Of a DNA stretch of 38,686 nt, positions 5,351-19,243 are shown one piece after another. The position numbers and the translations under genes were made by a program. Under the pieces are notes generated by a model. It did not search any database. It was not told the origin of the DNA and was given only the letters and a program-made list of their open reading frames with translations. Source of the stretch: a virus; IMG/VR virus record IMGVR_UViG_3300048837_001082, positions 1-38,686 of that record; one strand, written 5' to 3'. Positions within the stretch are counted from its first letter, which is position 1. Each line of letters starts with the position of its first letter.

Positions 5351-5352
5351 GC

Positions 5353-5853
5353 ATGAAGGCATCAGATTTTTACGGCAGTTCGTGGTTGAAGAGCGAAGAC
5401 TTGGAGTTGGAGCAAACGTACGATGTCACGATTACAGATGTGTTCTCGCACACATTCGACGACGAGTCTTCATCGAAGAGCAAAGGCAAGCAGGAGAAAC
5501 GCAAAAGTCGCCCACAGCTTGCGATCGAGTTCGAGGAGTTCGACAAGCCACTGTCCCTGAATAAGGTGAATGCCAACACGATCATTTCTTTGTACGGCAA
5601 CGAAACGGACGATTGGATCGGAGCTCGGATAACGATTTACGTCAAGGAGGATGTCGAGTACGCGGGTGAAGTGATGTGCGGAATTCGCGTTAAGCCGCGC
5701 GCTCCCAAGAAGCCGGAACGGAAACAACGTCGCACAGCTCGCGAAGATGACCCACGTGAGAGTCGTCGTTCTGACTCCCGCAGCGCAAAACGAACATCGA
5801 AGCGCACGACCAGGCGGCGACGGCAGGACGATGATCAGGACGACGAGGAGTAA
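5353..5853 (+). CDS. Conserved phage recombination-module protein with LNKVNANTI motif
   Basis: 166 aa, ATG 3 nt after the previous stop. Residues about 20-115 form a beta-rich domain with the string LSLNKVNANTI, then LYGNETDDWIGARITIY and GIRVK. I recall this pattern from a common but unnamed phage family found near recombination genes, which may be a DNA-binding OB-like fold (inference). The last 50 residues are a highly charged Arg/Asp tail (KRTSKRTTRRRRQDDD), plausible for nucleic-acid contact. Tight spacing places it with the nuclease and resolvase. Confidence 0.7.
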   Translation: MKASDFYGSSWLKSEDLELEQTYDVTITDVFSHTFDDESSSKSKGKQEKRKSRPQLAIEFEEFDKPLSLNKVNANTIISLYGNETDDWIGARITIYVKEDVEYAGEVMCGIRVKPRAPKKPERKQRRTAREDDPRESRRSDSRSAKRTSKRTTRRRRQDDDQDDEE

Positions 5854-5859
5854 TCGGCT

Positions 5860-6324
5860 GTGAACATCCTCGCACTCGACCAGGCATCGAAGACAGGCTG
5901 GGCCTTGTATCAAGACGGCGAGATTTCCAGCGGCGTGATACCGCTCGTGATCGTACCGAAGTCAAAGGGTCCCGGGCATCGACTCGTTTGGTTCCAGCGA
6001 GAGATCGACGAGATGTTCGGCAGCTTCTCGCGCGGGCAACTGGCGGTCTATCACGAGCAACCGTTTACCACCGACCGGATCGCTGCGGACGTGATTGTCT
6101 GCGGTCTGTCCATGCACATCGATTCGTGGTGCGAGGCGAAGGGGTACCGCTCGCGCGTCGTCCATAACCAGACTGTCAAGAAGCACGCCACCGGTTCGGG
6201 ACGGGCGACGAAGGAACAGATGCTGCGGAATGCCAGGATCAAATGGCCGAATCAAGCGATCATCGACCACAACCAGGCTGACGCGCTGTGGATCCTGGAC
6301 TACGTGATTTATGGAGAGAAGTGA
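5860..6324 (+). CDS. RuvC-like Holliday junction resolvase
   Basis: 154 aa, GTG start at 5860. RNase H-fold signature: D7 in LALDQASKTGWA, E66 in VYHEQPF, and D141 in DHNQADALWI, matching the acidic triad of RuvC-type resolvases. It probably cleaves four-way junctions or branched DNA during recombination or before packaging. It overlaps the methyltransferase start by ATGA. Confidence 0.85.
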   Translation: MNILALDQASKTGWALYQDGEISSGVIPLVIVPKSKGPGHRLVWFQREIDEMFGSFSRGQLAVYHEQPFTTDRIAADVIVCGLSMHIDSWCEAKGYRSRVVHNQTVKKHATGSGRATKEQMLRNARIKWPNQAIIDHNQADALWILDYVIYGEK

Positions 6325-7313
6325 TGGATTGGTATGGAGACATCGACACCATGGCGTGCGCATGGGTGCACGCTCTGATAGCAGCAGAGTTGATACCGAT
6401 CGGCGATGTCGACAGTCGATCGATTCAAGAGGTGACGGGTGATGAATTACGAGGCTATCGACGATGCCACTTCTTCGCAGGAATCGCAGGCTGGGCGGAG
6501 GCGCTACGCCTTGCCGAATGGCCAGCAGCTGTTCCCGTTTGGACAGGTTCGTGCCCGTGTCAACCATTTAGTGTTGCCGGCAAGGGTAAAGGAACGGCAG
6601 ACGAGCGGCACGTCTGGCCAGAGTTTCGCAGGCTCATTGACCAGTGCCGACCTCCAATCGTCTTTGGAGAGCAGGTTGCGAGCAAACTTGGCCGAGAGTG
6701 GCTCGCCGGTGTACGCACTGACTTGGAAGCATTGGGATATGCTGTCGGGGCCGCCGATCTGTGCGCTGCGAGCGTCGGTGCGCCGCACATCAGGCAGCGA
6801 CTCTACTGGGTGGCCTACGGCAACGGTGAACGATTCTCGAGGAGGAAGGAACCGAACTGCCAATCGGAGCAACCAGCACAGCAAGCATCACGACGGGCTG
6901 ACTCTTTGCGATGCAGTGGAGTTAGCGGGATGGCGAACCCCCGAAGCATCCAACGGCGAACAGGGCGCGAAGGAACCGACCGGCATCAATCCGCGAGTGA
7001 CGTTGACGGATCAGGTCACCGGATGGTCGACTCCGGCAGCGCGAGACTGGAAAAGCGAATCAGCGCCGGACGAGTGTCAGAATCACAGGTGGAAGCCATT
7101 GCGAGCGAAGCCGTTGAGCTGGCAAGCAACCATTGGGACGGAACCGAATGGATCGCCTGCGCCGACGGAAAAACGCGGCCAGTTAAACCCGGCATTCAGT
7201 TGCTGGCTCATGGGATTCAGGGACGTGTGGCTCAGTTGCGTGGATTGGGAAACGCCATCGTCCCGCAAGTCGCAGCGGTGTTCGTGAAATCATTCTTGGA
7301 GGTGGTGTCATGA
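6324..7313 (+). CDS. C5 cytosine DNA methyltransferase
   Basis: 329 aa, ATG at 6324 overlapping the previous stop. Motif I HFFAGIAGWAEAL (about 49-61), motif IV GSCPCQPFS with catalytic C79, motif VI-like FGEQV (114-118), motif VIII IRQRLYWVA (156-164) and motif X RGLGNAIVPQ near 306-315 are all present. The enzyme should transfer a methyl group from AdoMet to cytosine C5. The target-recognition part (about 165-300) is low in known motifs and contains short repeats of the ANPRSIQRR / VDSGSARLEK kind. No restriction enzyme is adjacent, so it is probably an orphan that protects phage DNA. Most of it is overlapped by a second open frame. Confidence 0.9.
   Translation: MDWYGDIDTMACAWVHALIAAELIPIGDVDSRSIQEVTGDELRGYRRCHFFAGIAGWAEALRLAEWPAAVPVWTGSCPCQPFSVAGKGKGTADERHVWPEFRRLIDQCRPPIVFGEQVASKLGREWLAGVRTDLEALGYAVGAADLCAASVGAPHIRQRLYWVAYGNGERFSRRKEPNCQSEQPAQQASRRADSLRCSGVSGMANPRSIQRRTGREGTDRHQSASDVDGSGHRMVDSGSARLEKRISAGRVSESQVEAIASEAVELASNHWDGTEWIACADGKTRPVKPGIQLLAHGIQGRVAQLRGLGNAIVPQVAAVFVKSFLEVVS
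6442..7287 (+). CDS. Possible overlapping protein in a second frame of the methyltransferase gene
   Basis: 281 codons open in a different frame on the same strand. The ATG at 6442 (GTG at 6439) has GAGGTG about 7 nt upstream. It is not random-looking. It has TWKHWDMLSGPPICALRAS, three spaced GW-x-T-(P/A) segments (GWPTATVND, GWRTPEASN, GWSTPAARD) and GQLNPAFSCWLMGF near its end. From memory these strings match proteins often deposited beside phage C5 methyltransferases. It could be a real overlapping gene or an echo of the conserved methyltransferase codons. Confidence 0.4.
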   Translation: MNYEAIDDATSSQESQAGRRRYALPNGQQLFPFGQVRARVNHLVLPARVKERQTSGTSGQSFAGSLTSADLQSSLESRLRANLAESGSPVYALTWKHWDMLSGPPICALRASVRRTSGSDSTGWPTATVNDSRGGRNRTANRSNQHSKHHDGLTLCDAVELAGWRTPEASNGEQGAKEPTGINPRVTLTDQVTGWSTPAARDWKSESAPDECQNHRWKPLRAKPLSWQATIGTEPNGSPAPTEKRGQLNPAFSCWLMGFRDVWLSCVDWETPSSRKSQRCS

Positions 7314-8053
7314 TGCGGACCTGCGTCGAGTGTGGCTTTCCCACGACTGGCACGAGTCGCTGCTCAGTATGCCACTGTGAGAAGTTCAAGTTTCGGAGAT
7401 GTAACCGCTGTAACGCGGAGTTGTTAAGCGTGGGCATCTGCAGCTGCGGTTGCCCGGAATTTCGTTTGGAGGAGTCGATTGTGAGTGCAACAGCAACTGC
7501 GCCAAAGCGCGCAAGACGGCCGAGGAAGCTTGGCGACGTGGCCCAAGAACGGGTCGAGGAGCTGGATGACGATGCTGAGGTCGTGGAGGAGAAGCCCAAG
7601 CGGAAACGCAAGGCAGCCCGCGACAAGGGTCCCAGCGAGAAAGTGCTCAAGGCGAAAGCGTTGGGGGATGCGAATACATTCCCCTGCCAATTCGGTGGCG
7701 TCTCCATCGGCGACATGACGGGGCGTATCTCACTCAAGATTGCCAAGGACCGGATTAACGTCGGCACCGCGGAGAAGCTGTTCTGCGGTCGGCGAGTGAA
7801 CTGCAGGTTGGTAGCTCGTCCCGTTGACGAGGATCCGGATCAGCAGCACCTGCCGGACATGGACACGAAAACGACGATGGAGGCTGTGGTCGACGTGAAG
7901 CGATTCGCCAGCGATCCCCACAACATCTCGATCGGGGTGACGTGCAGCCTGCAAGAAGTGGACGTGACAGAGCTGTCGCTGTTTGCGAAGAAGTTCGGCA
8001 GCATCACCGTGTTGGATACCCAGTCGCTGGACGAGCTGGGCGACGGCGAATAA
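7310..8053 (+). CDS. Zinc-ribbon protein with charged linker and conserved C-terminal domain
   Basis: 247 aa. The ATG at 7310 overlaps the methyltransferase stop, with TTGGAGG upstream. The N-terminus has three to four Cys knuckles (CVEC, CSVC, CNRC, CSCGC) within about 50 residues. A Lys/Arg/Glu-rich linker (about 65-110) and a beta-rich C-terminal domain (about 120-240) follow. Probably a nucleic-acid-associated phage protein of the modification/recombination block; the specific function is not recognised. Confidence 0.7.
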   Translation: MMRTCVECGFPTTGTSRCSVCHCEKFKFRRCNRCNAELLSVGICSCGCPEFRLEESIVSATATAPKRARRPRKLGDVAQERVEELDDDAEVVEEKPKRKRKAARDKGPSEKVLKAKALGDANTFPCQFGGVSIGDMTGRISLKIAKDRINVGTAEKLFCGRRVNCRLVARPVDEDPDQQHLPDMDTKTTMEAVVDVKRFASDPHNISIGVTCSLQEVDVTELSLFAKKFGSITVLDTQSLDELGDGE

Positions 8054-8069
8054 CGATGTTCCTTGTGTG

Positions 8070-8115
8070 CCAAGCCCGTGCCGTACTCATCGATCCGGTA
8101 CGGTGCGGTGCTTGG
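8070..8115 (+). other. Long inverted repeat in the gap before the Nmad1-type gene
   Basis: Arms 8070-8086 and 8098-8115 pair along 17 positions with two G-U pairs and one bulge, around an 11-nt loop. The sequence after it (TTCCTTTG) is only partly T-rich, so it could be a weak terminator, a processing site or an attenuator. A 22-codon frame starting at 8056 runs through it but has no ribosome site. Confidence 0.5.
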
Positions 8116-8132
8116 TTCCTTTGAGGTGATAG

Positions 8133-8684
8133 ATGATTGCAAAACTGTTTAAGTTCTATTGTCCGCCATGCTCACTTTACTGGGATTCTCCGGCAGTGGC
8201 TGACGTTTGCGACAACTGCGATAAGCCTGCCGAAGTCTATTGTGCTGCTTGCCGCGAGTTTCGTCCGGTGGAGAGTTTTGACTTTACCCTACACGAATGT
8301 CGGCGACATCAGGGCAGCGTGACCAGGATTCCTGACGAGTTGACGCTAATCGCCAGGACATTGAATGGAGTTAACGGTTCCGATCAACAGCGAATCGCAG
8401 AAGTCGGCATTGACTGGATCCAGACCCTCCTCGCCAAGAACAAAGACTACGGTGGCTCGGCATGGGAGACTCCCTGCCTAGCACCGCACATCGATGTTCG
8501 TGACGCGTTGTTCTGCCGCATGTCCGACAAAGTAAAGCGGATTGCTGCGCTGAGTTCGGGCGCAACACCTAAGGTCAACGAGTCGCTCGAGGATACGGTT
8601 AAAGACCTCGGAGCGTATTGTCTGCTATGGCTGGCGAGGCCAGTCGATTCATCAACAGGAGCAACCGATGCAACAGAACATTGA
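8133..8684 (+). CDS. Zinc-ribbon plus nucleotide-modification-associated domain 1 (DUF1599-like) protein
   Basis: 183 aa. GAGGTGAT precedes the ATG. Residues 10-40 carry C10, C13, C26, C29, C37 and C40 (two zinc knuckles). Residues about 92-168 resemble the Nmad1/DUF1599 domain: LLAKNKDYGGSAW, CRMSDKVKRIAAL, then NESLEDTVKDLGAYCLLWL. This domain is predicted from gene context to take part in modified-nucleotide metabolism of phages; its chemistry is not established here. Near the methyltransferase it hints at DNA modification or nucleotide handling. Confidence 0.7.
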   Translation: MIAKLFKFYCPPCSLYWDSPAVADVCDNCDKPAEVYCAACREFRPVESFDFTLHECRRHQGSVTRIPDELTLIARTLNGVNGSDQQRIAEVGIDWIQTLLAKNKDYGGSAWETPCLAPHIDVRDALFCRMSDKVKRIAALSSGATPKVNESLEDTVKDLGAYCLLWLARPVDSSTGATDATEH

Positions 8685-8847
8685 ATCAGCCATCCCGGTG
8701 GCTGAACGTGGGCCGGACACGATCATCCTGCAGAAGATCGATCGAGAAATCAAACAAGCGGAGCAGTGGCACGCGTGGACGGCACTGCGATTGAAATCAC
8801 TGCGGAACCTACGCGAGCGATTCGCGGATCCGCAAGAGCGAAAGTAG
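8668..8847 (+). CDS. Small charged helical protein (59 aa)
   Basis: The ATG at 8668 lies inside the end of the previous gene, with AGGAG 5-6 nt upstream; the stop TAG is at 8845. It reads MQQNIESAIPVAERGPD, then a continuous amphipathic helix rich in Arg/Lys/Glu (KIDREIKQAEQWHAWTALR). No recognised family. Ribosome site and overlap make it a credible gene. Confidence 0.6.
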   Translation: MQQNIESAIPVAERGPDTIILQKIDREIKQAEQWHAWTALRLKSLRNLRERFADPQERK

Positions 8848-8852
8848 TAGGA

Positions 8853-8965
8853 CCGCCCTGGCTGGATCCTGCTCGTCGCGGGTGAAGGTGCCAAATGCTA
8901 ATGGCCTTGCAGGCGGCAACAGGGCGGGCCTGGTTATACAGGTCGCCCCACCGTAGGGGTTTTTT
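8853..8965 (+). ncRNA. Candidate multi-stem structured RNA ending in a terminator
   Basis: CCGCCCTG (8853-8860) pairs with CAGGGCGG (8920-8927), enclosing about 60 nt. A CCTG/CAGG hairpin (8929-8942) follows, then CCCC-accgta-GGGG (8946-8959) and T6. The gap between genes is about 207 nt with no coding sequence. The layout (aptamer-like closed domain, then terminator) is that of an attenuator or riboswitch, but no known class is recognised. Confidence 0.45.
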
Positions 8966-9054
8966 GTGAGGGGCGCCGGATCCCTGTTGGCCAGCATTGG
9001 GCTGGAGAAGTCCGGCAAGACACTTTTTATCAATCGGTAAACGAAAGGAATTTT

Positions 9055-9303
9055 ATGCGCGCAGAAAATGCACCCTCCTCAGCCATCGACCAGACAAAGG
9101 TCGTGAGCCTACATCCATCAATCACGCACGTGCTGGAGTACTTCAAGTACCTGCATCTACCGCAGCACCTGCAGGACGTCTCCATGCCGTTCAGCGAGTT
9201 GGCGTACAAGGTCGCATGGCGAGCACCCAATAATCCTGAAACGACAGTTGCATTGCGGAAGCTGCTGGAAGCGAAGGACGCTGCGGTACGCGCGGCGCTG
9301 TGA
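9055..9303 (+). CDS. Conserved small phage protein (82 aa)
   Basis: The ATG follows AAAGGAATTTT. It carries YFKYLHLPQHLQDVS and TVALRKLLEAKDAAVRAAL. I recall this pattern (HLPxxLQxVSxxF ... LRKLLExKDxAVRA) from a widespread unnamed phage family. All-helical and soluble. It stands alone between two structured non-coding gaps, so it may be independently regulated. Confidence 0.75.
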   Translation: MRAENAPSSAIDQTKVVSLHPSITHVLEYFKYLHLPQHLQDVSMPFSELAYKVAWRAPNNPETTVALRKLLEAKDAAVRAAL

Positions 9304-9343
9304 CACTCGATAGGCCCGTCAGTGCGTTACTGGCGGGGAGTAG

Positions 9344-9396
9344 CCTGGTCCGGCGCGCGTGAACAGCGATCTGCGTGCTGCCGGGCCAGGATTTTT
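9344..9396 (+). terminator. Strong hairpin terminator just before a gene
   Basis: CCTGGTCCGGC (9344-9354) pairs with GCCGGGCCAGG (9380-9390) over 11 bp with one G-U pair, followed by ATTTTT. The next start codon is only 14 nt later, so read-through or antitermination would be needed to express it from upstream. Confidence 0.7.
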
Positions 9397-9409
9397 CTGA
9401 AGGGACGTT

Positions 9410-9592
9410 ATGAGCAACCTCATCGACCTAGTCCGTCTCGTCGAAGACATGCGAACGTGGCAGCGGGAGTACTTCAAGACGCGGTCCTCGGTGGCACTGG
9501 AGACGTCCAAGGAGTGCGAGCGGAAGGTTGACGCGTGGATTAGGCAGTTTCGGAATCCGCAGGCGAGTTTGTTTGAGAAGGGTAGGGAGTGA
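9410..9592 (+). CDS. Conserved small phage protein (60 aa)
   Basis: The ATG follows GAAGGGAC. Its sequence (LVRLVEDMRTWQREYFKTRS, then ERKVDAWIRQF) is an alpha-helical pattern I recall from small phage proteins of unknown role. Its TGA overlaps the next ATG. Confidence 0.7.
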   Translation: MSNLIDLVRLVEDMRTWQREYFKTRSSVALETSKECERKVDAWIRQFRNPQASLFEKGRE

Positions 9593-9990
9593 TGGGCGTT
9601 CGTAAATCCGGTCAGTGTAAGTGGTTCAATGGCATTCAGAACAAGGTCTGCAAAGCTGGCGTCAGTTACGACAGCTTGCCGCGCAACGAACGCGGCGTGA
9701 TAGTGCTGCCATGTATCCAGCCGGAGTGCCAATCGAACTGCGACAAGTACGAGGAACCGACGGCAGAAGAGATTGCGGCGGATGAGGAATGGATGCGCCA
9801 GCGGATGGAGATGCACAGGAAGGTTGGAGAAGTAATCATACCGATCCGCAAGGAATACAAAGGGCGAAGCGGCAACGGGACTATCACATGCCCATGTTGC
9901 GGCGGAAATCTTCATTGGTCGATCAGCGGCTACAACGGGCACATGCACGGCCGGTGCGAAACGGCAGGTTGTGTGTCATGGATGGAATGA
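9592..9990 (+). CDS. Cys-rich conserved phage protein (132 aa)
   Basis: ATG at 9592 (GTG at 9589 also possible). The N-terminus CKWFNGIQNKVCKAGV plus two further Cys suggests one metal site. The C-terminus ITCPCCGGNLHWSISGYNGHMHGRC-type segment makes a second zinc ribbon. The middle is a charged helix (PTAEEIAADEEWM). It resembles a common unnamed phage zinc-finger family. Confidence 0.75.
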   Translation: MGVRKSGQCKWFNGIQNKVCKAGVSYDSLPRNERGVIVLPCIQPECQSNCDKYEEPTAEEIAADEEWMRQRMEMHRKVGEVIIPIRKEYKGRSGNGTITCPCCGGNLHWSISGYNGHMHGRCETAGCVSWME

Positions 9991-10003
9991 AGCGAGGTGC
10001 GTA

Positions 10004-10678
10004 ATGGCCGATAAACCAATTCTATTCAGCGGCGAGATGGTGCGGGCGATCCTGGCTGACGAAAAGGGCTGCACGCGGCGTCTCTACAAGCTACCCAAGG
10101 GCATGGTCTGGTACGACGCGCTGGGCGGCGAGCAGGAAGGCTGGTACAGCAGCGAGGACCACGCGAACAACGGCTGGTGGCACGTTGAGGAGGAGCGTGC
10201 GTCGGTGGCTGTGGGGGACACGCTCTGGGTAAAAGAGACGTTTGCCGCGTTTTGTCACGACGATTACGACCCAGAGAACACTGCGTTGTACTGTGCGGAA
10301 AAAATCGTCACCGAAGGGATCATCCGGCATCGAGGCAAACAGATTGGCGAGGCTACTAAGAGACATCCTCTCCTGTGCTACTACCAGGCGACGTGCACTC
10401 AGCCACACCCAAATCACAAGAAGTGGCATCCGTCCATCCACATGCCCCGCTGGGCCAGTCGCATCACGCTCAACGTAACGGGTGTCCGCATCGAGAAGCT
10501 CCAGGACATGAACCGCGGTGACGCGATGGCCGAGGGGTGCCCGTTTCCCAATATGGCCAAGGGACCGAATCCGCTCGACTGGTTTCGGGAGCTGTGGGAC
10601 GGAATCAACGGGGCTGGATCATGGGACGCAAACCCGTGGGTGTGGGTGTACGAGTTTGAGCGGGTGGAGCAATCATGA
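10004..10678 (+). CDS. ASCH/PUA-like domain protein
   Basis: 224 aa from ATG 10004, with GCGAGGTG upstream. It shows KPILFSGEMVRAIL, a CTRR motif, GDTLWVKETF, then HPSIHMPRWASRITLNVTG and IEKLQDMNRGDAMAEG. This is the pattern of phage ASCH-domain (PUA superfamily) proteins, thought to bind RNA or modified nucleotides. It overlaps the next gene by ATGA. Its substrate cannot be read from sequence. Confidence 0.75.
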   Translation: MADKPILFSGEMVRAILADEKGCTRRLYKLPKGMVWYDALGGEQEGWYSSEDHANNGWWHVEEERASVAVGDTLWVKETFAAFCHDDYDPENTALYCAEKIVTEGIIRHRGKQIGEATKRHPLLCYYQATCTQPHPNHKKWHPSIHMPRWASRITLNVTGVRIEKLQDMNRGDAMAEGCPFPNMAKGPNPLDWFRELWDGINGAGSWDANPWVWVYEFERVEQS

Positions 10679-10878
10679 GCTACACGAAGCAAACCGCCTG
10701 GGAGTTCGCGTGCGGCTGGTACACCGAGCAGTCGGTCCGCATAGGTCTCACTCACAGTCCCAAGCCAGCTAGGGATGTTGACTCCGAGTTTGTGAAATGG
10801 CTGACCGAGCAAATGCGGCTAGCGATGGCCAAAGGGATCGACATCGGTCGGCGATGGGATGAGGAGAACGGTGCGTGA
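10675..10878 (+). CDS. Small hypothetical protein (67 aa)
   Basis: ATGA overlap with the ASCH gene and a GTG overlap with the next. It reads MSYTKQTAWEFACGWYTEQS and ends MAKGIDIGRRWDEENGA. Helical, no motif. Tight coupling on both sides supports expression. Confidence 0.6.
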   Translation: MSYTKQTAWEFACGWYTEQSVRIGLTHSPKPARDVDSEFVKWLTEQMRLAMAKGIDIGRRWDEENGA

Positions 10879-11357
10879 GAGACAACAACAACGTGCCCAC
10901 CGACCTGCGGAAGTTCGTGGAGTTTGGCGGGATGGCATGTCCGGTGAGTAATCAGGAAAGGAGCAATCAGGTGTGGATTCAAATTGACAATTGGGAACAG
11001 TACGAGCGATGGATCGACAGCAAGGCGATCGCGACAGTACAGAGGCGGAACTGTGACATTATCGTCGTGGGCACAAATCAGAAGTTGGCGGAAATCAATT
11101 GTGACACGCCGGACGCAGCGAAGGAGAAGATGGCAGCGATCATGAAGATCATCGCGCTGGCACCTGACGGCTATTTCTCCGAGATGGGATCGCTCACGCT
11201 GACTCCTGATCAGGAGGAGAAGCTACGGATCGCGGACTTTGCAATCGAGATGTCTGAAGGTTGGTCCTTCACGAAGTTCTGGAGCGAACATCCCAAACTG
11301 TTTCAGATGGTTAAAAACTACATCGATCGCAGGGATAAGGACGCTGCCACATCATGA
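10875..11357 (+). CDS. Hypothetical protein, alternative internal start
   Basis: The open frame starts at GTG 10875, but GTG 10971 has a much better AAAGGAG site (7-nt spacing) and would give a 128-aa protein beginning VWIQIDNWEQYERWIDSKAI. The N-terminal half looks like a small beta domain (IATVQRRNCDIIVVGTNQK), the C-terminal half helical. No family recognised. The next gene overlaps by ATGA. Confidence 0.6.
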   Translation: MRDNNNVPTDLRKFVEFGGMACPVSNQERSNQVWIQIDNWEQYERWIDSKAIATVQRRNCDIIVVGTNQKLAEINCDTPDAAKEKMAAIMKIIALAPDGYFSEMGSLTLTPDQEEKLRIADFAIEMSEGWSFTKFWSEHPKLFQMVKNYIDRRDKDAATS

Positions 11358-11683
11358 AAGAGCGTGGACTGATGAACCAATTCCTACACGACTTCGGCAT
11401 TCGCATCCTGCGTGCCAGGCGGGCTGCTGGGATAAGCCAGGAGAAGCTCGGGCAGATGGTAGACGGTGTCTCCCGACATTGCGTGTGGCACTGGGAGGCG
11501 GGGTTCAATGGCTGTTCGCTGGAGCGCGCGGCAAAGCTCGCAAAGGCGCTGAACGTAAGTGTGGGTTACCTGTTTGGAGAGGTGGAGCATGAAGTATTGG
11601 ATCGGAGGGCTCGTCGGAGTAGCGGGGACCCTACTGCTGCTACTACTGCTGACGCGGTGGACAAACTGGAAGGCATTCATTGA
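11354..11683 (+). CDS. XRE-family helix-turn-helix regulator
   Basis: 109 aa. Residues about 12-78 form a Cro/CI-type HTH (IRILRARRAAGISQEKLGQ, then LERAAKLAKALNVSVGYLFG). It probably binds operator DNA as a transcription regulator. The last 30 residues are low-complexity and overlap the next small gene. ATG 11372 is an alternative start. Its place inside the early operon, rather than divergent from it, argues against a classical CI repressor. Confidence 0.85.
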   Translation: MKERGLMNQFLHDFGIRILRARRAAGISQEKLGQMVDGVSRHCVWHWEAGFNGCSLERAAKLAKALNVSVGYLFGEVEHEVLDRRARRSSGDPTAATTADAVDKLEGIH

Positions 11684-11705
11684 CTGGTTGGGGAGGCACC
11701 TATGA
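11589..11705 (+). CDS. Tiny single-pass membrane protein (38 aa)
   Basis: ATG 11589 with GAGAGGTGGAG upstream, nested in the end of the XRE gene in another frame. It begins MKYWIGGLVGVAGTLL followed by a leucine run, a textbook membrane helix, then a short basic tail. Its TGA overlaps the next ATG (ATGA). Function unknown. Confidence 0.65.
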   Translation: MKYWIGGLVGVAGTLLLLLLLTRWTNWKAFIDWLGRHL

Positions 11706-12079
11706 GCGAGCGGCCACCAACGGCGGAAGAGCTGTTGACTCTTTTCATTCAATGGGAGCGGTTTGGCGATTGGGCTGCGCACCACAAGTTCATCGAAGGA
11801 CTCCCGAAGTGGATGGACGCCCAAGGCCCAGTGACGCGAGAGTGGTTCCAAGAGCGATTCGGTGGGCTTGATTGCGTCGTCGCTCGTCACGGTGATCCTA
11901 GGAAGGACTGCTGGGGGATCCTCCTCTACTACGATTGTTTCCTAGGCTTTCCGATCGTGCGGCTCACGTATCAGACAAAGTCTGCCACCGAATATGGGAT
12001 TGAATGGGCTTTACGAAGGGCGACGCGCAATCAACTCGAAGCCATGGTTCAGCTGCTTGGTCGAAAGGACGGTGACTGA
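11702..12079 (+). CDS. Hypothetical protein (125 aa)
   Basis: ATGA overlap with the preceding membrane protein. Mixed alpha/beta with aromatic-rich LFIQWERFGDWAAHH and a later LLYYDCFLGFPIVRLTY segment. No catalytic motif recognised. Its stop overlaps the next start. Confidence 0.65.
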   Translation: MSERPPTAEELLTLFIQWERFGDWAAHHKFIEGLPKWMDAQGPVTREWFQERFGGLDCVVARHGDPRKDCWGILLYYDCFLGFPIVRLTYQTKSATEYGIEWALRRATRNQLEAMVQLLGRKDGD

Positions 12080-12312
12080 TGGTCTGGGACCTGGACACGA
12101 TGAAGCGGCTGAATGCGGTTGAAGATTTCAAACACAACCGCGGCACCCGAAACAATTGGAGTGAATGCCAGGAGTTAATACGTGCCATCGAACGCGGTGG
12201 CTTCGATTTATCGCAGTGCATGCGGTGTGGTGAGCTCGTTGTCTGCATCCCAGACGGGCAGCCGATGTGTGAGGGGTGCGCGGGAGATGATGATGCAGAA
12301 TACAAAGTTTGA
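12079..12312 (+). CDS. Small zinc-knuckle protein (77 aa)
   Basis: Starts on the previous stop (TGATG). The N-terminal half is helical; residues about 47-68 carry CMRC and CEGC, a two-knuckle zinc site, and the protein ends in a short acidic tail. Probably a small nucleic-acid- or protein-binding factor; no family assigned. Confidence 0.65.
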   Translation: MVWDLDTMKRLNAVEDFKHNRGTRNNWSECQELIRAIERGGFDLSQCMRCGELVVCIPDGQPMCEGCAGDDDAEYKV

Positions 12313-12667
12313 TACGTGGGCGATCCTGGACATGATGGGGCACCAACGACTCGCTGGTCGCGTGACCGAGGAGACGATCGGTGGTGTGTCGTTACTGCGA
12401 GTTGACATACCCGAGCTGAACAACATTCCTGCGTGGACCACGTACATCACCGCGAACTCGCTGTACCAGATGACTCCAGTGACGGAAGAGCTGGCTCGGT
12501 CCATGGCTGCGAAGATCGGAAAGATGCCAATCACGTTCTATGACCTGCCACAGCAATGGCGGGAGAAGATCCAGAGCTCACCTGCTGGATTGCCAGCGCC
12601 GGACGATGACGATGAGTCGTACGGTTGCGACGAAGATGAGGACGAAGAAGAGGAGTTCGATATCTAG
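12287..12667 (+). CDS. Conserved phage hypothetical protein with acidic tail (126 aa)
   Basis: Three consecutive ATGs (12287, 12290, 12293) follow a G-rich site, so the exact start is uncertain by two codons. It contains ILDMMGHQRLAGRVTEET, LLRVDIPE, TYITANSLYQMTPVTEELA, a pattern I recall from a common unnamed phage family. It ends in a long Asp/Glu run. Directly precedes the replication initiator. Confidence 0.7.
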   Translation: MMMQNTKFDTWAILDMMGHQRLAGRVTEETIGGVSLLRVDIPELNNIPAWTTYITANSLYQMTPVTEELARSMAAKIGKMPITFYDLPQQWREKIQSSPAGLPAPDDDDESYGCDEDEDEEEEFDI

Positions 12668-12669
12668 CG

Positions 12670-13617
12670 ATGATCCACACAGCACGTCAAACAGCGAAGT
12701 TCATCAAGCTCGTCCGAATGATTCGGCAGGCGTTTCCTGGGCTCCCAATTGACCCGGACACCGTCGCTGTCGGCATTCTCGAAAAGCTCTGGCACTTCGC
12801 GATCAACAGCGCCAAAAGGGGCGACGTTGGACGTCATTCCGACGACGTTCTTGCCGAGGCAGTTGGGTGGTATGGGGAACCTGCGGAGCTTGTGGAGCTT
12901 CTGGTGGTGACGGGCTGGCTCGACATCGACCCCCACCACAGGCTGGTTGTCCACGACTGGGACCAGCACGCTCCGGGCTTTATTAAGCGGAATATAGCTA
13001 AGTCGGGGGGGTGGGCCAAGTCATCACTTAATGATGCTTCGGTGCAGTCAAGTGACGACTTAGACGACGGAAGTGAGGACTTAGATATACCTGACACCCC
13101 GTTAAGTGAGGACTTGGAGCACGGAAGTGGCCACTTAACTGCTCAAAAACCCCTCCAAGTGCCCACACCTAACCTAACCAAACCAAACCTAACCCAACCC
13201 AACCCAACCGGCGAGCTCCGCTCGTGGGATGGGGTGGAGCTTTTGCTGGTCGAGGTCGGAATCGGTCGCCGCGAGAAGGTCATGGCCCACCTCCGCTCGT
13301 GCGGGTCGGAGCCGTTCAAGGTCGACCAGATCGTGGGGGTCTGGCGGTCGCACAAGGGGCGTTTCTCGAATCCGCACGGGGCCCTCGTTGAGCGGCTGAT
13401 GAACGAGCACCCTGGCATGGCGGCGGACACGGGCTGGGTCGTACCGCTGCAGCGAGACACCGGCCAGCGGAAGCCACGGGACCGGACGCTCGACTTCGAG
13501 ATGCAGCGCACGCACCTGGTCAAGCAGCTGCGAAGCGAGGGCAAGGACGAAGAGCAAATCGAGGCTGCTGTCGCGAAGTTGGCAGCGCGGTTGAAGGAGA
13601 AGGCAAATGCAACGTGA
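12670..13617 (+). CDS. Phage replication initiator-like protein (lambda O / DnaD-type organisation)
   Basis: 315 aa. Residues 1-115 resemble the winged-helix N-terminus of phage replication organisers (GILEKLWHFAI, LVVTGWLDIDPHHRLVVHDW). Residues about 116-178 are a low-complexity acidic then TPNLTKPNLTQPNPT linker. The C-terminal helical part (about 180-315) would contact helicase or loader. The linker DNA contains six phased iterons and a C/A tract, so the protein probably binds an origin inside its own gene, as lambda O does. No phage helicase, loader or polymerase was recognised, so host machinery is probably recruited. Confidence 0.75.
   Translation: MIHTARQTAKFIKLVRMIRQAFPGLPIDPDTVAVGILEKLWHFAINSAKRGDVGRHSDDVLAEAVGWYGEPAELVELLVVTGWLDIDPHHRLVVHDWDQHAPGFIKRNIAKSGGWAKSSLNDASVQSSDDLDDGSEDLDIPDTPLSEDLEHGSGHLTAQKPLQVPTPNLTKPNLTQPNPTGELRSWDGVELLLVEVGIGRREKVMAHLRSCGSEPFKVDQIVGVWRSHKGRFSNPHGALVERLMNEHPGMAADTGWVVPLQRDTGQRKPRDRTLDFEMQRTHLVKQLRSEGKDEEQIEAAVAKLAARLKEKANAT
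13018..13207 (+). other. Candidate replication origin (iterons plus C/A pentamer tract)
   Basis: 13-bp dyad iterons: AAGTCATCACTTA (13018), AAGTGACGACTTA (13050), AAGTGAGGACTTA (13071), AAGTGAGGACTTG (13104), AAGTGGCCACTTA (13125) and a degenerate AAGTGCCCACACC (13157). Start-to-start distances are 32, 21, 33, 21 and 32 bp, near three and two helical turns. Eight perfect pentamers (CCTAA, CCAAA or CCCAA) follow at 13168-13207, without a single G on this strand. Iterons plus a strand-asymmetric tract inside the initiator gene is the lambda ori plan. Confidence 0.75.
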
Positions 13618-13978
13618 AGCGATCGACCTGGAGAGCATGCGCGAAGTGATGCGACAGTTCCCGCGAGATGCCATCGAACGCGTCGTCCTAGTGGCCACCA
13701 CGCGGCGACTGACGCAACTGCGAGTCCATTGCGACTTCTGCAACGGGACTGCGATGCGGTGGGGCGTGTCATGCCCGAAGTGCTACGAGACGCGAGCGAA
13801 TGGCGTGGGGTTGCTCACTGCGTTAGACGGGATCAGCTACTTCGAGTGTAAGACGGACGTCGACGTGTTGGCCAAGGCGACCGATTTGCGGCGGCGAAGT
13901 ACTGCGAAGGTGTTCATGGCACTTGACTGCCACAACGTCGTGGTGGAAGTTCCGGATTGGTTGGTCAGGTTGATGTGA
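13607..13978 (+). CDS. Zinc-knuckle hypothetical protein after the initiator (123 aa)
   Basis: AAGGAGAAGG precedes the ATG, which lies 11 bp inside the initiator gene. CDFC and CPKC (about residues 42-60) form a zinc site. Flanking regions are alpha/beta with a long hydrophobic stretch near the end (KVFMALDCHNVVVEVPDW). Position suggests a replication accessory role, but no helicase-loader motif (no Walker A) is present. Confidence 0.7.
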   Translation: MQREAIDLESMREVMRQFPRDAIERVVLVATTRRLTQLRVHCDFCNGTAMRWGVSCPKCYETRANGVGLLTALDGISYFECKTDVDVLAKATDLRRRSTAKVFMALDCHNVVVEVPDWLVRLM

Positions 13979-13995
13979 CAACGGGAAGAAAGCAC

Positions 13996-14184
13996 ATGCA
14001 AACGCATATCGAGGAACTTAAAGAGCAGCTTGGCAAGGTGAAGGCGATGGAGACTGCGATGCGAATCAACCTCGAGCTGATATCGCTGAAGATGCGGGAC
14101 CTGAGCTTGGCACACACGAGGATGCAGATAGCGATTCAGAAGTTGGAGGGCGTGGCCTGTGATAGCACCGATCAGCGACGATGA
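13996..14184 (+). CDS. Small coiled-coil protein (62 aa)
   Basis: The ATG at 13996 gives MQTHIEELKEQLGKVKAMET with heptad-like Leu/Met spacing through residue 50, a predicted coiled coil. The ribosome site is weak. Its end overlaps the next start by 26 bp. Function unknown. Confidence 0.55.
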   Translation: MQTHIEELKEQLGKVKAMETAMRINLELISLKMRDLSLAHTRMQIAIQKLEGVACDSTDQRR

Positions 14185-14410
14185 CGACGATGTGGTATTT
14201 CTTGATCCGTTTGAGCCCGAGATTAACCTGTCGATCGAGGAGCAGAACGACGCTATGGACATCGCGATGCGTCGGCTCAACGCGGAGTGCGAGTGGACGT
14301 GGACGAACGAGGAAGCCCAGGCGATGGCTGAGTACGTGCTATGGGCCGGCATTCGCATCGCAGCCATCGAGCAGCTCGTTTGCGGAAAACTTTTTCACCA
14401 GCGGGATTGA
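14159..14410 (+). CDS. Small acidic hypothetical protein (83 aa)
   Basis: GTG start at 14159 with GGAGGG upstream. The N-terminus is a run of Asp (SDDDDDVVFLDPFEPE), then helical with aromatic residues (CEWTWTNEEAQAMAEYVLWAG). Last gene before a strong terminator, so it closes the early/replication operon. Confidence 0.6.
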   Translation: MIAPISDDDDDVVFLDPFEPEINLSIEEQNDAMDIAMRRLNAECEWTWTNEEAQAMAEYVLWAGIRIAAIEQLVCGKLFHQRD

Positions 14411-14446
14411 CGCGCACCCGGAAATGTGCCAAGAATCTAAGCACAC

Positions 14447-14508
14447 AAGGCACAAAGGCGTCAGTCACTCGGGGTTTTCCGACTGATTGGCGTCTTCGTG
14501 CCTTTTTT
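14447..14508 (+). terminator. Rho-independent terminator closing the early operon
   Basis: AAGGCAC (14447-14453) pairs with GTGCCTT (14498-14504) and T6 follows. An internal hairpin TCAGTC/GACTGA (14461-14486) lies inside. It separates replication genes from the secreted/lysis genes. Confidence 0.8.
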
Positions 14509-14537
14509 GTTGCACGCCGCTTTTCCGGAGAAAACCG

Positions 14538-15245
14538 ATGTTCGAGGCCCCAGCGATCGCCAAATACGGTGTTTGCCTGCTTCTCGCTGCCTACTCTTTC
14601 GTGCCGTTTGCACGCTCGCGAACTTGCACTGGACCGAATTGCCAAAACGGCCAATGCACGCGGCAAGCCACGGTGATTCTTGGGGGAATTCCGGTTACCG
14701 AGTCGCCGGAAATCTACACCGACGTGGTTGGCGATCGCTGGGTTCTCGTCGAAGAGCCGGTTGCGGAAGGTGAGCCCGAGGACTTCGTTTCGCCCATCGC
14801 GGAGGAAGCCAGCGACGTCAAAGCGGAGGTCGAAGCCGATGCGACCAGCGAAGACGCGGACGACAAAGCAAATCCAGAGCCGGAAGCGACTGTCGCGAAG
14901 ACGGCAGACTCAAAACCGGCTAAGGCTGCAGCGAAGACGCGGCAAGTTTGGATGCGTGCGAGCGATGCTGCACAGGCAGGGCTGAGGCCGGTGGCCACGC
15001 AAACTAGAGCGGCCAGCTACGGTTCGAGCGGCTCGGGCTATGGCTACAGCTTCCAGCAAACCACGCCGGTCACGTACACAACCAGCTACGGTTGCACTGG
15101 CAGCGGGATGGTCGCGTACTACGGCCAATCGCAACCAGCTTGCAACGCGTGCACCAGCGCGTACTACCACGCGTCGTCGCCAACGTACCGAACGCGGCGA
15201 GTGCTGTTCCCCAATCTGTTTCCGAGACTGCGAGGGTTGCGATGA
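14538..15245 (+). CDS. Secreted Cys/Tyr-rich protein
   Basis: 235 aa, CCGGAG upstream of ATG 14538. The first 27 residues (KYGVCLLLAAYSFVPFARS core) are a signal peptide. The mature start has closely spaced Cys (CTGPNCQNGQC). The middle (about 75-140) is acidic/Ala-rich. The C-terminal part is Ser/Gly/Tyr-rich with more Cys (SYGSSGSGYGYS, CNACTSAYYHAS) and ends basic. It looks like an exported envelope-associated protein and may be a lysogenic-conversion factor or part of exit from the host. No known domain. Confidence 0.75.
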   Translation: MFEAPAIAKYGVCLLLAAYSFVPFARSRTCTGPNCQNGQCTRQATVILGGIPVTESPEIYTDVVGDRWVLVEEPVAEGEPEDFVSPIAEEASDVKAEVEADATSEDADDKANPEPEATVAKTADSKPAKAAAKTRQVWMRASDAAQAGLRPVATQTRAASYGSSGSGYGYSFQQTTPVTYTTSYGCTGSGMVAYYGQSQPACNACTSAYYHASSPTYRTRRVLFPNLFPRLRGLR

Positions 15246-15496
15246 ACCAGCTGCTGTTGCCTGCTGTGATCCGAACCGCGGTGCCAGCGATTGTTGGAGC
15301 AGTCACCGCAATGCTCGCGTCTCGGTTCAACATCGTGATCTCTGATCAGACGTCGGTGGACATGACTGCAGCGTTCACTACGCTCGTCACGATCGGCTAC
15401 TACGTGGCAATCCGTCTTGGGGCGAAGCAATTCCCATGGCTTGAGAAGCTGCTCGGCGACACAAGTGTGCCGTTGTACTCAACTCGCAAGAGGTAA
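15242..15496 (+). CDS. Putative holin-like membrane protein (84 aa)
   Basis: ATGA overlap with the secreted protein. Two hydrophobic segments (about residues 5-27 and 43-60), separated by a polar turn, and a basic C-terminus (STRKR): size and topology fit a two-helix holin. It begins the probable lysis region. Holins are too diverse to confirm by sequence, so a structural membrane role is possible. Confidence 0.55.
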   Translation: MNQLLLPAVIRTAVPAIVGAVTAMLASRFNIVISDQTSVDMTAAFTTLVTIGYYVAIRLGAKQFPWLEKLLGDTSVPLYSTRKR

Positions 15497-15498
15497 CC

Positions 15499-16134
15499 AT
15501 GTCGGACACGCCCGTTGTCACTCCCCCGACCATACCTGCGCCTGCTCCCAAGCCGAAGCTGGGAATTGGTTGGGTTATCGCGATCGCGTTTTTGAGCTAC
15601 TTCCTCGGCCAGGGCAAGAATCCGCTCGACATCCTCCAACCGCAGCCCCCCGCGGTGGTCGAGCCCAGCGAGCCGGAACCGGTTACGCCGGCACCAACAC
15701 CAGCTGAGCCGATCGGTCCCATTGTGCCGGATACGCCACCTGTCGTGGAACCGGAACCCACACCGCCCCCCAAGCCGATGGACGAGACGGCTGCGATCGC
15801 ACGGTACGCTGCAGAAATCCTTCCGGAGCAGTGTCGCCAAGACTTTGGCAAGATGGCCGAAGCAGCTGCTGGTTGCGCTGATCGCATCGACGCGGGGCAC
15901 ATCCGCGACCAAGATGAAGCCAGTGGTTGGTTGACGGTCGAGAACCGAAAAGCAGCGACTGAATACGACTTGTGGGTGCCATTCTTCCGCGCAATGCAAA
16001 GTCGTTTCAAGGACCTGCGAGCTGCTGGCAAGATGGAGACGCTCACCGACTGGTCGCGTGAATTCCGCTCGATGGGCGACGGACTCGCAGCGGCTGCTGT
16101 GCTGCATCCAATTGCAGGAGAACCGAGTAAATGA
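15499..16134 (+). CDS. Membrane-anchored Pro-rich protein (211 aa)
   Basis: A short Pro-rich start, then one membrane helix (about residues 22-38, IGWVIAIAFLSYFLG), a long Pro/Glu spacer (50-95) and a helical C-terminal domain (about 97-211). A rigid spacer after a single membrane anchor is typical of proteins spanning the periplasm, so an inner-membrane spanin-like or envelope role is plausible. Overlaps the next gene by ATGA. Confidence 0.65.
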   Translation: MSDTPVVTPPTIPAPAPKPKLGIGWVIAIAFLSYFLGQGKNPLDILQPQPPAVVEPSEPEPVTPAPTPAEPIGPIVPDTPPVVEPEPTPPPKPMDETAAIARYAAEILPEQCRQDFGKMAEAAAGCADRIDAGHIRDQDEASGWLTVENRKAATEYDLWVPFFRAMQSRFKDLRAAGKMETLTDWSREFRSMGDGLAAAAVLHPIAGEPSK

Positions 16135-16418
16135 CCATCGCTGTTGGCGACGAAGTGTGGGTGGTGAGTGTCTACGGTCCCTATCGCGCGAAGGTCGTCG
16201 CGCTAGGCGAAAAGCCACATGTTTGTGTCTGTAGCGAGAAAAAGCTCGAAGTCGTGGACTTGGCCAAGGTCTATAAGAACGGGGCGGACTGCCATGAAGC
16301 GATGGCACACGAGTGCTTTCAAGTAGCGTCAGAAAAGATGGCTGCTGGAATGAAGTGGCAGGAGCAAGCCGCAAAGTTGCGTGAGAAGCCTCCAGTAACG
16401 GAACTACCGAACCAATGA
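16131..16418 (+). CDS. Hypothetical protein (95 aa)
   Basis: ATGA overlaps on both sides. The N-terminal half looks like a small SH3-like beta barrel (VGDEVWVVSVYGPYRAKVV), the C-terminal half is helical. No recognised function. It sits directly before the protease. Confidence 0.65.
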   Translation: MTIAVGDEVWVVSVYGPYRAKVVALGEKPHVCVCSEKKLEVVDLAKVYKNGADCHEAMAHECFQVASEKMAAGMKWQEQAAKLREKPPVTELPNQ

Positions 16419-17350
16419 ACGACGAACAGATCTGGCGACTACCACCCGTCCGCATCGACTCTGACGCGATGACCCTCGCTGGCGACGAACGTATCGACTG
16501 GGGTCTGCAGATGAACGCGATTCCAGACGAGTGGGCCAAGTCGCAAGGCGAAGGAATCCTGGTCGCAGTGCTGGACACTGGCGCATCCGACCACATGGAC
16601 TTGCCAGAGCCAGCGTTCGCTCACAACTTCACGACGTCGCGTTGGGCCAGCGATCGCAATGGCCACTCGACGCACTGCGCTGGCATCTTCGGTGCACGCG
16701 CGAACGAAACGGGCATCGTAGGTGTTGCGCCGAAGTGTTCCATCGGTTATTGCAAAGTGCTGGGAGACGACGGCTCGGGCTCGACCACTTGGATCGCCCG
16801 TGGCATTCGTGCTGCGATCAAGGAGGGTGCCAACGTTATTACGATGTCGATTGGTGGAGGCTACTCCGACGACGTTGCACGCGCATGCCAAGAAGCGGTG
16901 GAAGCAGGAATCATGGTCCTGGCAGCGGCAGGCAACAGCGGCTTTCGCGGCAGGAACTCGATCGACTATCCAGGCAAACTGCCGACGACGATCTGTGTCG
17001 CAGCGTACCGCAAAGACGGACGTATCAGCGACTTCTCCAGCGGCGGCGAACAAGTCGACATCGCTTGCCCAGGCGAGCAGATCTTGTCGTGCTATCCTGG
17101 CAATCAGTATCGGATGATGTCTGGCACGTCAATGGCGACTCCATTCGCTGCAGGACTGGTTGCGTTGATGCTGGAAGATGGCATGGGGCCGAAGTCGCTG
17201 GTCCAGCTTCGCGACACACTTAAGGCTAATTGCGAAGACAAAGGCCCGACAGGATTCGACGTGCGTTATGGGTTTGGCAATCCGATCCCTCGCCAGCTGG
17301 TACCGGACGACGCTCCTCCAAAGGCTGACGATGACCTCTACTTCTTCTAA
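16415..17350 (+). CDS. Subtilisin-family (S8) serine protease
   Basis: 311 aa. Catalytic D54 (VAVLDTGASDH), H84 (NGHSTHCAGI), oxyanion N174 (AAAGNSG) and S239 (SGTSMATPFAAG) are all present, so it should be active. There is no signal peptide and no long prodomain: the catalytic domain begins about 30 residues in, like intracellular subtilisins. It lies where phages usually encode the endolysin, between a holin-like protein and a lipoprotein. A role in breaking a protein-rich host envelope at lysis is an inference; virion or host-protein processing are alternatives. Confidence 0.92.
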   Translation: MNDEQIWRLPPVRIDSDAMTLAGDERIDWGLQMNAIPDEWAKSQGEGILVAVLDTGASDHMDLPEPAFAHNFTTSRWASDRNGHSTHCAGIFGARANETGIVGVAPKCSIGYCKVLGDDGSGSTTWIARGIRAAIKEGANVITMSIGGGYSDDVARACQEAVEAGIMVLAAAGNSGFRGRNSIDYPGKLPTTICVAAYRKDGRISDFSSGGEQVDIACPGEQILSCYPGNQYRMMSGTSMATPFAAGLVALMLEDGMGPKSLVQLRDTLKANCEDKGPTGFDVRYGFGNPIPRQLVPDDAPPKADDDLYFF

Positions 17351-17705
17351 GGCGTTAGTTCATGTGCTACTCGGAATTGCCCTCGGATTGGCGGGGTGTG
17401 TCCCAGCGTCATCCCTCGATCGAAATCGTGACACCACAGGTCGCCGAGTTCATCGAAGCGAAGGCAGGAGCGGTACGAATAGTAGCGAGCCAGTTATCGA
17501 TGCCAACGGAGCTGTTGGTCGGAATGCCACAGGGGTCGTTTACATCCCGAAGCACCGCTGTGCCGGCGACGGACGCTGGCCAGTCGGGGCGTGCTTCGTA
17601 GAGGACGGCAGTAACAAACCATACTGGTATCACGCTGACGGCACGTGGCAACCAGTCAAACCGAAGACCGTCACCGAAGACATTGCAGAGCCACCCACCA
17701 AGTAA
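17331..17705 (+). CDS. Lipoprotein (124 aa), possible outer-membrane lysis protein
   Basis: ATG 17331 lies inside the end of the protease gene. Residues 1-23 form a lipoprotein signal peptide with lipobox L-A-G-C (Cys23). The mature part is short and polar (HRSEGRSGTNSSEPV, then CAGDGRWPVGACFVEDG with two Cys). A small lipoprotein right after a lysis-type enzyme resembles an o-spanin, but its length and Cys pair are not typical. Outer-membrane localisation is inferred. Confidence 0.7.
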   Translation: MTSTSSKALVHVLLGIALGLAGCVPASSLDRNRDTTGRRVHRSEGRSGTNSSEPVIDANGAVGRNATGVVYIPKHRCAGDGRWPVGACFVEDGSNKPYWYHADGTWQPVKPKTVTEDIAEPPTK

Positions 17706-17715
17706 GGAGCAGACT

Positions 17716-18069
17716 ATGGTAGCGATTCGCAGACCAATCAACCGTTTCATGGACAACCGGATGGATCGCGTATTGCGACGAGCGATCCGAGAGCTCAAGG
17801 AAGACGGACAAGACACGACGCTGCTGGAAGCGGTGATGGACGACGACGAAGGTGCAGCAATGCTTCGTGACGAGAGCACCGTCGCCTACGCTGCTGCCCA
17901 GGGCATTGAAGTGCAAGCGTTCGGTGACAACAGACCGCTGCTCGACTTCATTAGCAAACTCATCGAAGCTGGTGCGTTCCGCAAGGCAGCCGAGTGGTTG
18001 TACGAGAACCGTGAAAAACTACTCGAGATTGCGAAGACGATCGCCGCAATCATCGGGATCTTTGCGTAG
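17716..18069 (+). CDS. Hypothetical protein with hydrophobic C-terminus (117 aa)
   Basis: AAGGAG precedes ATG 17716. Basic N-terminus (MVAIRRPINRFMDNRMDRVLRR), acidic middle, and an amphipathic-to-hydrophobic end (LLEIAKTIAAIIGIFA) that could associate with membrane. Function unknown; part of the lysis-region operon. Confidence 0.65.
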   Translation: MVAIRRPINRFMDNRMDRVLRRAIRELKEDGQDTTLLEAVMDDDEGAAMLRDESTVAYAAAQGIEVQAFGDNRPLLDFISKLIEAGAFRKAAEWLYENREKLLEIAKTIAAIIGIFA

Positions 18070-18101
18070 GGCGATCGCACTCGGATTAAGGGCAGAGAGT
18101 G

Positions 18102-18452
18102 ATGGGGTTGCTAGCGCAGGTGACGGGATGGGAACAGCACGGATTAGCTGGCCTGGTGATCGCTGCATTGATCGCAGCGTTCGCCTACTTCTATCGGGAC
18201 AACGCAGCACGCTACCGGGAGATTGACAACAGGCACACGTCCGAACGGGCGGGTTGGCTGGCTGAGTGCCGAGCCGAGCGTGCCGAACTGATGGCCATTC
18301 ACTCCAAGGCGTGGGAAGAGTCACGCGCTGACACGCGGACGTATCTTGCTGAGTCAACGGCAGCCACTCGCTCACTCGACAAGGCAGTGCGCGACCTACA
18401 CATCGAGATCAGAACCAAACGCTTCACCGATTCCAACGACAATACTGCGTGA
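18102..18452 (+). CDS. Membrane/coiled-coil protein, i-spanin-like (116 aa)
   Basis: ATG 18102 (GTG 18099 possible). One membrane helix at residues about 15-32 (GLVIAALIAAFAYFY), then a long charged helix (RHTSERAGWLAECRAERAEL and beyond) predicted as coiled coil to the end. The N-anchored, coiled-coil layout matches inner-membrane spanins, and a lipoprotein is encoded nearby. A holin-type role is an alternative. Confidence 0.6.
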   Translation: MGLLAQVTGWEQHGLAGLVIAALIAAFAYFYRDNAARYREIDNRHTSERAGWLAECRAERAELMAIHSKAWEESRADTRTYLAESTAATRSLDKAVRDLHIEIRTKRFTDSNDNTA

Positions 18453-18649
18453 CCGACCTACGTCACCGCGGCGGAGGGGTGTAGCGAAATGATACTGCCA
18501 AAATGGCAGTGTACGATTATGCAGCACCCACCCCCCGCTTTGGGTCCTTGAAATAAAACGCCGCGCCCAGTCCTTTGGACCCGCTTCGAACGCTGTTTGT
18601 GCACGAAAAAATGTGTTTTTCGGTTTTGATTTTTAGCCCATGGTGAGCG
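18453..18649 (+). other. Non-coding gap before the terminase genes, candidate cos region
   Basis: 197 bp without a credible gene. It contains a perfect dyad ACTGCCA-aaa-TGGCAGT (18494-18510), GGGTCC/GGACCC (18542-18582) and CGAAAAA/TTTTTCG (18604-18622). In lambda-like phages with GpA-type terminase, the packaging site lies just upstream of the small subunit. That placement, not a recognised cos sequence, is the basis for the suggestion. A late promoter could also lie here. Confidence 0.35.
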
Positions 18650-19243
18650 ATGGAGAGCGACGAGGAAAAGGCGATCGCCGCGCTGAAGAAAATCAGGGCC
18701 AAGGAGAAACCAACGCGAGACGAGGCACAGGCGCTCGCGAGGATTCAAAAGAAACAGCGGGAGGAGCTGTGGACGACTGGGCTCAAGGCAATACCGCTCC
18801 GAGTGTTCTGTGCACTGGCTGGGAGAAAACCAAATCAAGTCAGACAGCAGGCGCAACGCTACGGAATGCCGATCTCTGGTGACACGGTCGATCTGTATCA
18901 GTTCCTCGCGTGGGTGTACGACGACATCGCCAAGAACGCCAGGTCACCCGGTGGTGATGAGAGCAGCGAAGAGTCTCAGCTCGACAAGAATCGACAGATC
19001 GACTACCAGCGCAAGTTGCTGAGACTGCAACAGGAATCAGAGCAATTGATCCCTCGCGTCGTAGTGCACGAGGGGTTCTCGAAGTTGGCCTCGCATCTGA
19101 AACGCTTCTTCGAGTCGTTGCAACGTGAGTGTGGGGTGGAGTACTACGACCAGGGGATGGAGGTCTTAGACGACTGCCGGCGAGAGATCTACGGGATCGT
19201 AGGCCAGGCAGAGTCCGCGAAAGATGATAGCAACGGCACTTGA
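18650..19243 (+). CDS. Terminase small subunit-like protein
   Basis: 197 aa. The N-terminal half is charged-helical; residues about 48-85 (LKAIPLRVFCALAGRKPNQVRQQAQRYG region) look like a small helix-turn-helix, as in Nu1-type subunits that recognise the packaging site. The C-terminal half (about 115-185) is a long helix for oligomerisation or large-subunit contact. The call rests mainly on position immediately before, and a 20-bp overlap with, the large terminase. Confidence 0.7.
   Translation: MESDEEKAIAALKKIRAKEKPTRDEAQALARIQKKQREELWTTGLKAIPLRVFCALAGRKPNQVRQQAQRYGMPISGDTVDLYQFLAWVYDDIAKNARSPGGDESSEESQLDKNRQIDYQRKLLRLQQESEQLIPRVVVHEGFSKLASHLKRFFESLQRECGVEYYDQGMEVLDDCRREIYGIVGQAESAKDDSNGT

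Follow-up and report, generated by a model that had tools for sequence, protein, structure and literature searches.

Origins of replication inside initiator genes are textbook knowledge for phage lambda. Lambda O, which has a flexible linker between its domains, binds iterons as dimers, and the adjacent 39–40 bp are opened (PMC5043065, PMC6022878, PMC7466680). Annotated iterons or an annotated origin are found inside both O of lambda and gene 18 of P22, and reading the two sequences reveals iterons, an A-rich strand-asymmetric tract, and a palindrome, in this order. Which property other than A+T-richness makes an origin open, and what the reason is for the marked strand asymmetry of the lambda region, has been posed as an open question (PMC5043065). 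The phage locus analyzed here resembles ori-lambda/O and P22 gene 18 in the placement of the putative origin, which lies where the initiator gene codes for the linker joining a putative N-terminal DNA-binding domain to a C-terminal domain proposed to recruit the helicase, and in the succession of phased dyad iterons and strand-asymmetric tract, possibly with a palindrome after them (PMC6022878, PMC5043065). SPP1 oriL, in the gene 38 of the replisome organizer gp38, provides another example of a direct-repeat origin within an initiator gene (PMC6316719); compared by description, SPP1 differs by its A+T-rich opening element, by a second origin (oriR) elsewhere, and by its dedicated loader gp39 and its helicase gp40.

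The window, i.e., the whole stretch of DNA analyzed, is an IMG/VR virus record of 38,686 bases that carries phage genes, including the one for the terminase large subunit (19224–21281). At its left end (1–210), tandem repeats of 7 bp form three blocks, with units GTCCTTA, AGGTGAG, and of the CTCGC type, and a tRNA-Leu(CAG) comes just after them (294–379); this end may derive from the host or be a place of integration. The initiator gene codes for 315 aa on the forward strand (12670–13617), downstream of genes for exonuclease VIII-like and RuvC-like proteins. It matches phrog_9474, "replication initiation protein" (E = 1.6e-13, residues 25–107), and phrog_13246, "replisome organizer" (E = 0.0011), and the homology of the N-terminal domain to phrog_9474 is clear when this domain is searched by itself (E = 2.2e-14). 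All 44 aligned relatives (44/44) match phrog_9474 and form one family with the window protein; PHROG supplies a name only, and neither an origin nor a mechanism for PHROG 9474 was found in the literature searched. Pfam searches with the protein and the domain gave no family at threshold.

The AlphaFold2 model, built from an alignment of 55 family members, agrees with the earlier note on this DNA, which had described a low-complexity linker joining two domains. The N-terminal domain (residues 1–112, 12670–13005) is predicted with a pLDDT of about 94–98 over residues 11–110, and consists of helices followed by a two-strand wing, or β hairpin. We propose this winged-helix-type domain as the iteron binder. 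No PDB fold matched at E < 0.001 when the full model and the N-terminal domain were searched separately; the matches of the domain are weak and generic (E > 0.3), and some are to winged-helix proteins (MarR, MntR, Zbeta). The linker (residues 113–185, 13006–13224) has a pLDDT of about 45–66, and this predicted disordered segment is the exact location of the origin signals. In the C-terminal domain (residues 186–315, 13225–13614), helices are predicted with high confidence at 272–314 and with low confidence at 186–250. By analogy with lambda O and P, it would recruit the helicase or the helicase loader. Lambda has the P loader, whereas no P-like loader, and no helicase, was recognized among the window ORFs scanned (3492–21281). 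Unlike the window, Firmicutes relatives carry a DnaC-like gene beside the initiator.

An AAGT-N4-ACTT dyad, AAGTNNNNACTT, occurs exactly at 13018, 13050, 13071, 13104, and 13125, with no further exact copy elsewhere in the 38,686 bp. The five copies are AAGTCATCACTT (13018–13029), AAGTGACGACTT (13050–13061), AAGTGAGGACTT (13071–13082 and again 13104–13115), and the fully palindromic AAGTGGCCACTT (13125–13136); an imperfect sixth, AAGTGCCCACAC (13157–13168), overlaps the tract that follows. Start-to-start spacings are 32, 21, 33, and 21 bp, and then 32 bp to the degenerate copy. The positions, the spacings, and the degeneracy of the last copy had all been correctly given in the earlier note, but the unit is of 12 bp and not of 13 bp as stated there. 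The iterons of lambda, in contrast, have 18–19 bp. When the linker was recoded with synonymous codons, the protein being held fixed, 20,000 recodings following the codon usage of the ORF gave at most three copies of one dyad, and uniform codon usage gave at most two, versus the five observed.

Such dyads resemble operator half-sites and lie within the gene itself, as one would expect if they were operators for autoregulation by the initiator instead of parts of an origin; in plasmid initiators, iteron binding and autoregulation coexist. Yet the sites are about 350–490 bp inside the coding sequence, and autoregulation leaves unexplained the adjacent tract, found again at this position in relatives and also in initiators of other families. 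We therefore regard operators as a very unlikely reading of the repeats, and consider them as iterons in the following.

The adjacent strand-asymmetric C/A tract (13162–13209, forward strand), which we propose as a strand-opening or single-strand capture element, is free of G over 48 nt on the forward strand, and no other G-free run in the window exceeds 19 nt. Eight perfect C/A-rich pentamers had been reported after the iterons, and they are indeed found, as CCHAA units, at 13168–13207, with one imperfect unit (CCACA) preceding them at 13163. Matches to linked pentamer units number 7, versus 0.01 expected from shuffles, and the period-5 score is 30.5, versus a codon-null mean of 5.5. Because the pentamers traverse all three codon frames and the dyads occupy more than one, the pattern belongs to the DNA and not to the peptide. 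With 52% GC, the tract is GC-balanced and its duplex moderately weak; here lambda has an A+T-rich tract of 39–40 bp, whereas the window has a 5-nt C/A repeat that is not A+T-rich. The tract is not the least stable DNA in its surroundings, as 40 bp within the iteron array form a weaker duplex; opening through a weak duplex is unsupported as the main feature of the tract. The GC skew, which had been suggested as a check of the origin, shows no turn at 13 kb and is uninformative.

The strand complementary to the tract, with its GGTTA-type repeats, could form a G-quadruplex, and this could be the functional element, as a signal for replication or transcription. The G4Hunter score of the tract, −1.40, ranks in the most extreme 0.04% of positions in the window, and CC every 5–6 nt recurs across the family, both of which are in line with such a structure. 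However, the tracts of several relatives or analogues (L003, L006, and L364) are of A/G or CACAA type and nearly or entirely devoid of CC/GG, which excludes a quadruplex as the mechanism common to all. We consider it improbable that a quadruplex is the functional element, while it may contribute in the window tract. Directly 3′ of the tract there is a tentative candidate hairpin, CGAGC-TCC-GCTCG (13212–13224, forward strand). Across the family, a hairpin 3′ of the tract gave a Kolmogorov–Smirnov (KS) p of 0.10 under the codon null and of 0.002 under the positional null. A hairpin at this place can be seen in P22 and in many relatives, but the statistics for it as a universal feature are only suggestive. 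In P22 (L207, 3835–4000), a AATACCCCC...GGGGG hairpin directly follows the tract, and the same motif is 3′ of the tract in four relatives of the window initiator (L009, L062, L070, and L074).

Relatives of the initiator were obtained by a profile scan of viral contigs; a scan of genome contigs with the single protein sequence returned none. The best 80 of 165 relatives, together with annotated phages, gave 61 non-redundant lineages, window included. Cultured relatives include Synechococcus phage Sc-Yong805-2 and Paenibacillus phage Harrison. Repeats exceed the synonymous-codon null (p ≤ 0.05) in 43 of the 61, the tract does so in 47/61, and neither is significant in 7/61, versus 16.7% for repeats and 2.7% for the tract among 150 neighboring control ORFs under the same tests; the family rates are frequencies and not exact probabilities, because the relatives are non-independent, and because the p-values are bounded by 200 shuffles. 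Under the same tests, lambda and P22 have significant repeats and lack the 5/6-nt tract, and TP901-1 rep, also used as a yardstick, has neither significant repeats nor a significant tract.

The plan of the linker is common to the relatives, but its letters differ: lineage-specific iterons or dyads come first (e.g., CTAAGGA every 12 bp, GTCCGGACAC every 11, or GTGCGCAC every 10), followed by the tract, in which CC recurs at intervals of 5 or 6 nt (CCTAA, CCAAG, CCAGAG, CCTGTG, CCCCG). In some Firmicutes phages AGAGTAGACC-like units take the place of the CC-type tract. Among 51 relatives, 76% of the repeat spacings fall within 9–12, 20–24, or 30–36 bp, versus 42% expected, and the repeats are phased on the helix (Rayleigh R of 0.51 at 10.5 bp). 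The prediction that phased repeats and an adjacent asymmetric tract would persist in distant relatives while the peptide of the linker drifts was borne out, the peptide changing completely. Iteron similarity rises with the identity of the N-terminal domain (Mantel r = 0.15, p = 0.0005), as expected if this domain reads the iterons. Column-by-column covariation with the iterons was not concentrated in the predicted recognition helix, and no set of residues stood out. In two relatives (L034, downstream of 1916, and L060, downstream of 3276), an extra domain with a motif like YFIRGTVNGLIKVG, which looks GIY-YIG/T5orf172-like, lies between the N-terminal domain and the tract, displacing the latter downstream.

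The repeats might also arise from selection on, or slippage in, a proline-rich flexible peptide linker. The linkers are of low complexity, PE and PNLT repeats are present among them, and CCAGAG repeats are present in other proteins too. Yet the synonymous nulls reject this explanation in the window and in most of the relatives, and the window pentamers are in three frames. Spacings such as 10, 11, 20, 22, and 32 bp are not whole codons. Furthermore, the encoded peptides are unlike one another (PNLTKPNLT, PEPEPE, TETETE, and, from the opposite strand, ALALAL): 6-nt tracts encode PE in most relatives and TE, from another frame, in L035. In L082, the CCAGAG tract is on the strand opposite to the gene, about 110–135 nt past the N-terminal domain, where it encodes ALALAL, and the iterons, TGTCGAGACA, are still upstream of it. 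As tracts encode unlike peptides in different frames and strands, what is kept is the DNA, and it is extremely unlikely that the repeats arose through the peptide.

A blind scan from the DNA side, with CCWAACCWAACCWAACCWAACC (a CCWAA tract) against all viral contigs, gave 114 stretches in total, most of them outside substantial ORFs. The matches outside long ORFs (loci L092–L205) may be repeats of other kinds, origins in non-coding DNA, or contigs that are not from phages. Mid-ORF matches, i.e., those well inside an ORF of at least 230 aa and on the C-rich strand, correspond to 18 non-redundant genes, and all 18 code for replication initiators, of five families: 14 are in the family of the window initiator and 4 in others, namely DUF1376 primosomal (L130), DnaT-like/phrog_1408 (L135), DUF6291 (L155), and phrog_2149 (L189). 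Each of these four has significant repeats in the codon-null test. The scrambled control, (CACAW)x4, gave only two mid-ORF genes, one of them lambda-O-like with iterons of its own; because both are initiators, of other families, the order of the unit is not key and CACAW is not a clean negative control. A lambda-O-like initiator at L364 (3793–4623) has an (ACACA)n tract, not A/G-rich, after ACAGAAATA-type iterons, and could link the lambda type with the pentamer type. The CCAGAG repeat is non-specific, since 6 of 17 non-redundant mid-ORF matches are in the family of the window initiator, and was discarded as a stand-alone marker of origins.

These results raise the idea, which we advance tentatively and with more doubt than conviction, that the C/A tract with a 5/6-nt period is a portable phage origin element, common to at least five initiator families (phrog_9474, DUF1376 primosomal, DUF6291, phrog_1408/2149, and DnaT-like, with a CACAA form in a lambda-O-like protein), and read as a specific single strand instead of being opened through A+T-richness. 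Such a role would be similar to the service of the DnaA-trio in bacterial origins. The DnaA-trio (cited in PMC5043065) is also a short-period strand-specific repeat beside initiator sites; it has period 3 and is bound by DnaA, whereas the tract has period 5/6 and an unrelated initiator.

In conclusion, the window element is very probably the replication origin of the phage, lying where the initiator gene codes for the linker, and working like ori-lambda. Repeated candidate sites in the initiator gene, helical phasing, and an adjacent strand-asymmetric tract are all present. The lambda-like origin proposed in the earlier note is supported by the phased repeats and tract kept in relatives, by the match to a "replication initiation protein", and by the order of parts seen in lambda and P22, within the limits set by the GC content of the tract and by the lack of detectable homology to lambda O (hhalign probability of 0.06 percent over 7 columns, a comparison of limited power with O as a single sequence); as judged by sequence, the protein falls outside the lambda O family. 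By analogy with lambda, binding, melting, and the start of replication would all take place at this element. The N-terminal domain, as dimers, would occupy the AAGT-N4-ACTT dyads, which through their phasing share one side of the double helix, and would thereby bend the DNA or wrap it. The resulting strain on the adjacent 48-bp C/A tract would open it, with one strand held single, and the C-terminal domain would then recruit a host DnaB-type helicase, directly or via an unrecognized loader. We propose that this tract, a G-free repeat of 5 nt with balanced GC content, takes the place of the A+T-rich region at which ori-lambda opens. As the asymmetry and the 5–6-nt period are kept, while the tract has 52% GC and is not the weakest duplex, this suggests that one strand is captured, and not that the duplex melts easily.

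The class of embedded origins is known; the plan common to the family, a pentamer tract with balanced GC content, and its sharing among initiators of different families were not found in the open-licence library searched, from which most subscription papers are absent. Here the layout is seen across a large uncharacterized family, in which each phage carries an initiator beside its likely target, and which thus supplies dozens of ready-made protein-site pairs. In these relatives the asymmetry and the 5–6-nt period are kept and A+T-richness is not, which bears on the question of how origins are opened. The rule of phased repeats followed by a short-period tract in the linker of the initiator could locate the origins of many uncultivated phages.
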